The translations under genes and the position numbers were made by a program. 64,000 nucleotides of DNA. Origin: Bacteroidota bacterium (lineage in GTDB: Bacteria > Bacteroidota > Bacteroidia > B-17B0 > Aurantibacillaceae). The stretch covers positions 124,001 through 188,000 of the forward strand of contig JAQZBQ010000007.1 of NCBI GenBank assembly GCA_029237825.1. The letters run 5' to 3'. The notes under the pieces were generated by a model. That model had not been told where the DNA came from and did not search any database. It saw nothing but the letters and a program-made list of their open reading frames with translations. This document shows, piece after piece, positions 1,986-3,777 of the stretch. Every line of letters begins with the position of its first letter. Position 1 is the stretch's first letter.

Positions 1986-2693
1986 TTAAGATGCTTTCAC
2001 TTCAACTACAACGCCATCCGTGGTAGTGTAATATACGGGAATAGTAGCCTTACGAAGGGCTAAATAACCCGTGTATACATCGGAAAAATTCTTTCTTTCG
2101 GTAACAACCGCTTCATAATTTCCGTTGAGGCCGATCATAAGTTCACAGGCTTCACGTACAGAACCGCGTCCGCTTGTATTTCCTGTAAGATAATCCGCCA
2201 AATGGTGCTTTAAAACATACTCATTAAATAATGGGTTTGATTTTCGGGGAATAAATATTCTCAGACCACACACCTCCGCAAGTCCAAGATCCAGCACATC
2301 ATCAAAAACATACGCAATTTGATTTAACTGAATATTATGAACAGAACACAGGTGGTTGGCGGCATCTATTTTATTTGCAAATTTTGAGTAAGACGTGTGA
2401 AACCGCTCCCTGTCAACAAATAAAAACGCTGAATTGTTTTTCTCTCCTGAAATAATGGCGGTTGTCGGTAGACACTGATGCTGTAAATAGTAAGAAAACC
2501 TTAACAGGTTTGTGCCCATGCTATCCACTTCACTAAAACGACTATTTAGCTGAAAGTCTTTACCGGCATCTGTAAACACGCCGTCCCAATCAAAAACGAA
2601 TGCTTTGATGTTCTTCATCTTCTCAATCAGTGAAGCTTCGGGTAAAATGAAATCACCGCCTATCTGTGTAAATACCTGCGTTAAATGCGACAT
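1986..2693 (-). CDS. KdsC-like HAD-superfamily phosphatase
   Basis: A 235-residue HAD hydrolase without a cap domain. Motif I is DWDGVFTD (nucleophile D35, acid D37), motif II is IISG (S82), motif IV is FDDVLDLGL (D131, D132), and the C-terminal GRGSVREACELM (about 175-186) matches the tail loop of KDO-8-phosphate phosphatase KdsC, which reaches into the neighbouring subunit's active site. It is longer than KdsC (about 170-190 residues), with about 28 extra residues in front and about 45 behind. An alternative start at M26 would remove most of the front extension. It lies downstream of the transaldolase-CBS gene with a hairpin terminator between them, so its expression may depend on read-through. 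KdsC-type specificity (Kdo or another acidic sugar phosphate) is inferred. Confidence 0.75.
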   Translation of the reverse strand: MSHLTQVFTQIGGDFILPEASLIEKMKNIKAFVFDWDGVFTDAGKDFQLNSRFSEVDSMGTNLLRFSYYLQHQCLPTTAIISGEKNNSAFLFVDRERFHTSYSKFANKIDAANHLCSVHNIQLNQIAYVFDDVLDLGLAEVCGLRIFIPRKSNPLFNEYVLKHHLADYLTGNTSGRGSVREACELMIGLNGNYEAVVTERKNFSDVYTGYLALRKATIPVYYTTTDGVVVEVKAS

Positions 2694-2713: not shown

Positions 2714-2750
2714 TAAAAAAAGCTTTACCTCAGGAGATAAAGCTTTTTTA
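2714..2750 (-). terminator. Intrinsic terminator after the transaldolase-CBS gene
   Basis: AGCTTTA at 2721-2727 pairs with TAAAGCT at 2738-2744; the stem is extended by an A-run on the left and a T-run on the right, with loop CCTCAGGAGA-like bases between. On the minus strand it lies just beyond the transaldolase stop (2767) and just before the KdsC-like start (2693), so it could separate or attenuate the two. Confidence 0.7.
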
Positions 2751-2766
2751 AATACTGTTCTTTTAA

Positions 2767-3777
2767 TTATCCTTTCATATCCTGGATGTCCAGCATACCA
2801 ACAGGCTTCCCGCCATCTGTTACGACAATTGTATCCACGTTGGTTTTTTTAAACAAGGCGCTGGCATCATTTAATAACACACCACCATCAATAGTGATTG
2901 GCTCACGGTATTCTAAATCTGAAAGTTTTTTAGTTAAGATGTCGCGTCCTTTTTCACCTATTAACTTCCTAAGCCCTCCATCTGTGAATACTCCTTTGAT
3001 GCTGCCGTCAGCTTTAGTAACTGTAACCGCGCCATAGCCAAACTCAGTCATTTTGATAATAGCATCGGTAATTGTAGTGTTTTCCGCCACAATAGGGTTA
3101 GTGCCTTTAATGGCTTCTCTTACGCGTACCATCATCATTCGCGTGTCGGCAATAAACTGGTCTGTTCCTAGTGTAGTAAAGTTGTTTTCTGTAAGCTGTT
3201 TCATAACTTTTAATGGTACCGTGATGGTATGAACCCCAACATTAATTGCATTACGAACATGCTCTGCATGACGGACAGAAGAAAACATGATTTTTGTATC
3301 ATAATCATACAGGTCCACCGCGTTAACACACTGTTCAACTAGGGCAAGGGCATCGTGACCCTGATCCTGTAAACGACCCACTAATGGACAAACATAGGTT
3401 GCACCTGCATGCATCGCCATATAAGCCTGTTGCAGTGTGTAAACCAAATGAACGTTAACTAAATATCCTTTGTCGCGTAACATTTTACAGGCACGCACAC
3501 CCTCCAAAGAAACCGGGATTTTAAATACTGTTTTTTTTGGGTCTAACCCTAAGGCTAGTTGACGCTCTGCCTCTGCTAATACTTCCTCCGCTGAGTTCCC
3601 AAGAGCTTCAATCTGAAGCACAGGTACCATTTTACTCAGTTTTACAATTGTTCCATCTATATCAGTAATCCCTTCTTTCTGCATGAAAGTAGGAGTTGTA
3701 GTAAGACCATTTAAAAATCCTAATTTAAAACCCTCTTCTATTTCTTTAAGGTTTGCCGAATCTAAATATAATTCCAT
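2767..3777 (-). CDS. Transaldolase/fructose-6-phosphate aldolase-like enzyme fused to a KdsD-type CBS pair
   Basis: The start was placed at the ATG ending at 3777 (MELYLDSANL), which is the canonical N-terminus of the small transaldolase/FSA family; an upstream ATG adds 20 unlike residues. Product 336 residues. Residues 1-220 form the FSA-like barrel: K86 in TVFKIPVS is the expected Schiff-base lysine, followed by YLVNVHLVYTLQQA and PLVGRLQDQG. Residues 227-336 are two CBS motifs (AVTVTKADGSIKGVFTDGGLRK and TIVVTDGGKPVGMLDIQDM) that resemble the C-terminal CBS pair of arabinose-5-phosphate isomerase KdsD/KpsF, not generic CBS proteins. FSA enzymes are normally about 220 residues and lack this tail. 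pgk is upstream, a KdsC-like phosphatase downstream. The reaction is inferred; regulation by a nucleotide or sugar nucleotide through CBS is likely. Confidence 0.85.
   Translation of the reverse strand: MELYLDSANLKEIEEGFKLGFLNGLTTTPTFMQKEGITDIDGTIVKLSKMVPVLQIEALGNSAEEVLAEAERQLALGLDPKKTVFKIPVSLEGVRACKMLRDKGYLVNVHLVYTLQQAYMAMHAGATYVCPLVGRLQDQGHDALALVEQCVNAVDLYDYDTKIMFSSVRHAEHVRNAINVGVHTITVPLKVMKQLTENNFTTLGTDQFIADTRMMMVRVREAIKGTNPIVAENTTITDAIIKMTEFGYGAVTVTKADGSIKGVFTDGGLRKLIGEKGRDILTKKLSDLEYREPITIDGGVLLNDASALFKKTNVDTIVVTDGGKPVGMLDIQDMKG

Follow-up and report, generated by a model that had tools for sequence, protein, structure and literature searches.

The window analysed here is a stretch of 64,000 nucleotides from a Bacteroidota genome (contig JAQZBQ010000007.1, positions 124,001 to 188,000). 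On its reverse strand we saw a gene in which a TalC/FSA-type barrel is joined to a KdsD-type CBS pair; a gene for a KdsC-like HAD phosphatase follows, with an inverted repeat between the two. The features are as follows:

2767..3777, minus strand: fusion gene, TalC/FSA-type barrel plus KdsD-type CBS pair (336 aa in a single frame, ATG at 3777)
3142..3777, minus strand: transaldolase/FSA barrel, residues 1-212 (PF00923 at 120.5 bits, and a fold match)
2767..3141, minus strand: CBS pair of KpsF/KdsD type, residues 213-336 and the stop codon (profile, PDB and locus comparisons)
3520..3522, minus strand: codon of Lys86, the Schiff-base lysine (unchanged in all 99 fusions and in 25 ordinary FSAs)
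3694..3696, minus strand: codon of Thr28, in place of the donor-recognition Asn of ordinary FSA/TalC (99/99 fusions)
3448..3450, minus strand: codon of His110, in place of the catalytic-water Thr (99/99 fusions)
1986..2693, minus strand: KdsC-like HAD phosphatase, 235 aa, 73 nt downstream of the fusion (PRK09484 and TIGR01670 both below cut-off)
2716..2749, no strand assigned: 12-bp inverted repeat with T runs on both strands, a possible two-way terminator between the fusion and HAD genes (fold -14.8 kcal/mol)

The Pfam match to TAL_FSA (PF00923) covers residues 3-201 of the fusion protein, above the cut-off of 27, and the NCBIfam model fsa_talC (TIGR00875) reaches 163.4 bits over residues 1-212, under the equivalog cut-off of 245.95. 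Pfam also found two CBS stretches; for a SIS isomerase domain it returned no match. Thus, the reading of the first-pass annotation, an FSA/transaldolase barrel with K86 followed in one frame by a KdsD/KpsF-type CBS pair, was borne out by both Pfam and NCBIfam, and the motifs GVFTDGGLRK and PVGMLDIQDM stand as it quoted them.

The AlphaFold2 model of the fusion has a pLDDT of 90.1 and a pTM of 0.60; with the latter value, the relative placing of the barrel and the CBS domains cannot be trusted. The modelled barrel matched the transaldolases of T. acidophilum (3s0c) and B. subtilis (3r8r) with Z 29.7. As the VIA-align and Foldseek rows were limited to the barrel, the CBS fold of the fusion rests on sequence. 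With Pfam score, Lys86 and barrel fold all meeting the criteria, the fusion is a member of the TAL/FSA superfamily. It is not a TalC/MipB equivalog in the sense of TIGR00875; both the score and the donor- and water-site residues fail.

The fusion is not a product of chance or of an assembly joint, since a scan of the collection gave at least 80 full-length or nearly full-length fusion loci in other genomes (470 related stretches were confirmed). A second FSA/TalC, ordinary and without CBS, is encoded in the host genome, so the fusion is not required as the sole transaldolase. Upstream of the fusion is a phosphoglycerate kinase gene, identified from its sequence. Elsewhere, in about 24 listed loci (L051-L092), the fusion is preceded by genes for Omp28-like secreted proteins that carry C-terminal sorting domains and are duplicated in some cases.

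The HAD gene, described at the first pass as KdsC-like and next to the fusion, is indeed there with its motifs intact: DWDGVF, S/T-G, K and DD..D are conserved across the aligned HAD proteins of fusion-carrying genomes (carriers). The scores, 51 bits for PRK09484 (cut-off 208) and 36 bits for TIGR01670 (cut-off 107), leave the KdsC cut-offs unmet. Among the 75 listed fusion loci with enough downstream sequence, HAD was the next gene in 52, with a median gap of 36 nt. In the window, the inverted repeat with its T runs suggests that the fusion and HAD genes may lack a common transcript; a terminator scan, which needs three G-C pairs, did not report this repeat.

KdsD and the fusion across genomes

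The C-terminal part of the fusion was compared with several sets of CBS proteins. The KpsF profile TIGR00393 scored 55 bits, aligned only at profile positions 151-267 of 268, the CBS part; the best CBS-bearing NCBIfam model outside the KdsD/KpsF/GutQ group gave 28 bits on the tail. PDB matches of the tail were CBS chains of arabinose-5-phosphate isomerase (4o9k, 3k2v and 3fna). Against KdsD loci of other genomes the tail scored up to 60.8 bits, and no more than 25.8 bits (E 0.026) against any of the host genome's eight further CBS loci, which agrees with the KdsD-like wording seen at the first pass. An unrelated CBS family as source of the tail is ruled out by the profile, PDB and locus scores, and, judged by sequence similarity, the closest relatives of this CBS pair are those of KdsD/KpsF. 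The tail was probably taken over from a KdsD-type protein and probably has the same allosteric role as in KdsD; regulation is inferred only from the presence of CBS, and the ligand is untested. With the KdsD/KpsF/GutQ proteins the fusion shares the C-terminal CBS pair, the place beside kdsA and the niche of KdsA-containing genomes; it differs from them in having no SIS domain and an unrelated catalytic fold.

The host assembly (3.55 Mb, 99.7% complete) was searched family by family. KdsA (335 bits) and KdsB (219 bits) were both found over cut-off; a SIS-domain KdsD was not found in this search. GlmS, a single MurQ-like protein and a single GmhA-like protein were the only SIS proteins that the family-by-family search turned up in the host, and a KdsD concealed elsewhere in the genome was rejected on this ground.

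We then considered a phylum sample of 296 Bacteroidota genomes, in which KdsD was counted at E <= 1e-40. KdsA was present in 219 genomes, KdsD in 212 and the full-length fusion in five; all five fusion genomes had KdsA and lacked KdsD. The fusion was therefore seen in 5/8 genomes with KdsA and no KdsD versus 0/211 genomes with both (Fisher p 1.4e-8, uncorrected for phylogeny). In the remaining three (G023, G200 and G272), which contain KdsA, we found no KdsD and no fusion; gaps in the assemblies or another, third source of arabinose 5-phosphate (A5P) are possible explanations.

Within the host order (87 genomes) the fusion was present in 84 and KdsD absent from 85. Two members of this order had both genes: in G346 (L181) KdsD sits beside recQ, a kdsD site common to several KdsD-containing relatives; in G366 (L182) the copy is on a 3.3-kb contig, a possible contamination. 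As one clade proves little, a mixed family, f11, was chosen (222 genomes from 36 genera, 181 of high quality). In f11 we saw the fusion in 21 genomes from four genera, KdsD in 185 and both in none; the high-quality genomes contained 19 with the fusion, 159 with KdsD, none with both and three with neither. Families f3 and f9 of the phylum sample also contained fusion genomes as well as KdsD genomes. Such mixing within f11, f3 and f9 indicates that the pattern arose several times or travelled. The genomic evidence strongly supports replacement of the SIS-domain KdsD by the fusion in a large group of Bacteroidota; the survey of this phylum proposed at the first pass found the fusion recurring in place of KdsD.

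Operon context and the KdsA of carriers

In some 12 listed loci from several lineages the gene order is aminotransferase - Fe-ADH - kdsA - fusion - HAD - kdsB, with HAD missing in some; in the host, the aminotransferase, Fe-ADH and kdsA genes are together on a separate contig (C31, L180). The first two genes of the operon code for DegT/DnrJ/EryC1 and Fe-ADH proteins, the make-up of KdnA/KdnB, and no KdnA/KdnB-specific model was among the NCBIfam hits for these two proteins. In Shewanella, KdnA is the partner of KdnB in turning Kdo into 8-amino-Kdo (Kdo8N), a route on which work was reportedly done by Gattis in 2013; A5P presumably comes there from an ordinary KdsD, a difference from carriers. 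The role of Shewanella KdnB in formation of Kdo8N from Kdo has been described (PMC5125639). What carriers have in common with Shewanella is that their kds genes are accompanied by those for an Fe-ADH and a DegT-type aminotransferase; a DegT aminotransferase and an Fe-ADH adjoining kdsA, the criterion for Kdo8N genes, are present in the host as well as in carrier operons. With the fusion inside a kdn/kds operon, the related sugar is likely to be 8-amino-Kdo. In one carrier (G091, L010:2609-3072) a small two-gene cassette resembling a HicAB toxin-antitoxin pair separates kdsA from the fusion.

In other Bacteroidota, e.g. G001 and G009, kdsD adjoins kdsA, the very slot occupied by the fusion in carriers. 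Most telling is G249 (L187), which has a kdnA-kdnB-kdsA-HAD-kdsB operon from which the fusion alone is missing, and a canonical KdsD is encoded elsewhere in its genome. Within one genetic setting, then, the fusion and KdsD appear to be exchangeable, an argument for their supplying the same product. The first-pass annotation had inferred another way into Kdo or a related sugar that bypasses KdsD, and this inference is supported by KdsA and KdsB without KdsD in the host, by the KdsD-like CBS tail, by the replacement across genomes and by the operons.

The KdsA proteins of carriers are themselves unusual. In 19/19 aligned carriers KdsA was changed at positions invariant in 24 KdsD-containing genomes: KANRS, the A5P-binding motif, has become KDNRS, accompanied by F116Y, R119M, Q202R, P204Y and a two-residue insert in the loop near 204-207. 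The loci of this type are:

L005:1453-2283, L010, L011, L012, L095-L118, L163 and L164: carrier-type KdsA

One could take these changes, including KDNRS and Arg119 to Met, as a sign that the fusion makes another aldose phosphate from which the divergent KdsA builds a different ulosonic acid, and an altered KdsA following a different fusion product was initially favoured. This explanation was weakened by G249, which has the same type of KdsA with KdsD and no fusion: here carrier-type KdsA evidently works with the KdsD product, so the change in KdsA is not tied to the source of A5P. As kdsB is retained as well, we consider another aldose phosphate improbable.

Active site and proposed chemistry

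We compared the active sites of 99 fusions and 25 ordinary FSA/TalC proteins. Asp6, Thr26, Glu57, Lys86, Asn108, Arg135, Ser167 and Arg169 were kept in all 99 fusions; changed in all of them were N28T, T110H, S130C, F132L, D137Q and the small residue (Ala/Val/Ser) at 165, replaced by Phe. All 25 ordinary FSAs had Asn, Thr and Phe at 28, 110 and 132. Donor recognition in E. coli FsaA depends in part on Asn28, and the catalytic water is held by Thr109 with Gln59 and Tyr131 (PMC13259622). With the lysine and the phosphate site (both phosphate arginines) kept and positions 28, 110 and 132 changed, the donor site and the proton relay are rewritten. The earlier view of the barrel as an ordinary FSA needs a reservation, since several donor and catalytic residues differ in every fusion. 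Thr28 and Phe165 fit a donor smaller than dihydroxyacetone, and closure of the pocket on the C1 side would select for a donor lacking the hydroxymethyl group; this is an inference with no pocket measurement behind it. The change of the water-site Thr to His and of the proton-shuttle aromatic residue to Leu in all fusions also means that the chemistry of the barrel may differ from a plain aldol reaction.

The closest characterized relatives, TalC/FSA enzymes (3r8r, 3s0c and E. coli FsaA, 1l6w), share with the fusion the fold, ~33-38% identity (to TalC-type members) and Lys86, Asp6, Glu57, Asn108, Ser167, Arg135 and Arg169; the CBS tail, the rewritten residues and the linkage to Kdo genes instead of the pentose phosphate pathway belong to the fusion alone. 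Homology of the barrel to transaldolases leaves room for a merely regulated transaldolase, with A5P coming from elsewhere, for instance from a side activity of GlmS, as eukaryotic GFAT has A5P isomerase activity (PMC11301363). However, a kdsD gutQ mutant of E. coli is auxotrophic despite its own GlmS (PMC11301363), the host already has an ordinary FSA/TalC without CBS, and the fusion differs at conserved active-site positions, takes the place of KdsD and is part of the kdn/kds operon; we see little room for such an explanation.

We infer instead, with considerable confidence, that the fusion is the A5P source for Kdo and 8-amino-Kdo in place of KdsD, although no activity has been shown and A5P as the product is itself inferred. 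Somewhat less firmly, we find it likely that A5P for Kdo is made on a CBS-controlled transaldolase barrel, its tail taken over from KdsD, through either a C-C bond reaction at a Schiff base or inversion of ribose 5-phosphate at C2; this would be a second natural way of taking the first committed step in the Kdo pathway, possibly passed between lineages with the kdn/kds operon. As to the chemistry, aldol addition of free glycolaldehyde to glyceraldehyde 3-phosphate is the likeliest single reaction, though our inference could equally well turn out right or wrong. Arabinose 5-phosphate is fructose 6-phosphate without C1, hence the stereochemistry fits this route. The donor would be held on Lys86 of the barrel as a Schiff base, and glycolaldehyde and glyceraldehyde 3-phosphate would yield A5P; KdsA would then join A5P and phosphoenolpyruvate, and the neighbouring HAD enzyme would remove the phosphate. 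KdnB/KdnA would place the amino group at C8 and KdsB would activate the sugar, with a pathway product or a nucleotide probably exerting allosteric control of the fusion through the CBS tail. For the whole of this explanation (A5P-supplying fusion, aldol route, HAD, KdnB, KdnA and KdsB downstream, CBS control) we regard the case as evenly balanced.

The proposed reaction has precedents. FsaA prefers glycolaldehyde as donor and with glyceraldehyde 3-phosphate as acceptor gives A5P (PMC6298115); the same route has been used in vivo (PMC9947464). The synthetic, A5P-dependent glycolaldehyde assimilation (PMC9947464; PMC6298115) resembles our proposal in running this reaction on an FSA barrel, and differs in being engineered, catabolic and CBS-free, with no link to lipopolysaccharide. 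The title of PDB entry 3upb describes a transaldolase in covalent linkage with arabinose 5-phosphate. The weak point of the aldol route is the glycolaldehyde: no dedicated source gene was identified, and by our estimate folate synthesis alone would give far too little.

This supply problem would be avoided by the main rival, a ribose 5-phosphate 2-epimerase in the same role, as ribose 5-phosphate is an abundant metabolite that differs from A5P at C2 only. The Lys86 aldimine would lose its C2 proton to form an enamine and regain one on the opposite face, or the sugar would be split and rejoined, without free glycolaldehyde; His110, invariant along with Leu132 in the 99 fusions, would be the new acid/base. 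No assay speaks for it, and we know of no natural aldose 2-epimerase in the transaldolase barrel fold, so that we consider it unlikely, even though TalB F178Y, given glycolaldehyde and glyceraldehyde 3-phosphate, yields A5P as well as ribose 5-phosphate (PMC9947464). Still more doubtful is a ribulose 5-phosphate/arabinose 5-phosphate isomerase evolved in the aldolase barrel. It would replace KdsD without change of precursor, and eukaryotic GFAT, an enzyme of different main function, has this activity (PMC11301363); yet a ketone Schiff base gives no simple path to the free aldose, and Lys86 is strictly kept.

Implications for the Kdo pathway

Nearly all Gram-negative bacteria synthesize Kdo, the inner sugar of lipopolysaccharide, and the pathway is often essential to them; a single enzyme family is taught as responsible for its first step. 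By the evidence here, the fusion is a non-orthologous replacement, not described before, within a known pathway; we found no published description of a transaldolase-CBS fusion or of a KdsD-free Kdo route in the open-access literature (most subscription journals were outside the scope). The rule that a genome has kdsA exactly when it has kdsD or gutQ has served as a benchmark (PMC3402364). Throughout one order and in scattered genera of Bacteroidota this rule breaks down, and the gap is accounted for by a specific gene. If our explanation is true, a pathway hole is filled, and a regulatory CBS pair has been carried between unrelated enzymes for one metabolic step; inhibitors of KdsD would then miss the organisms that carry the fusion.
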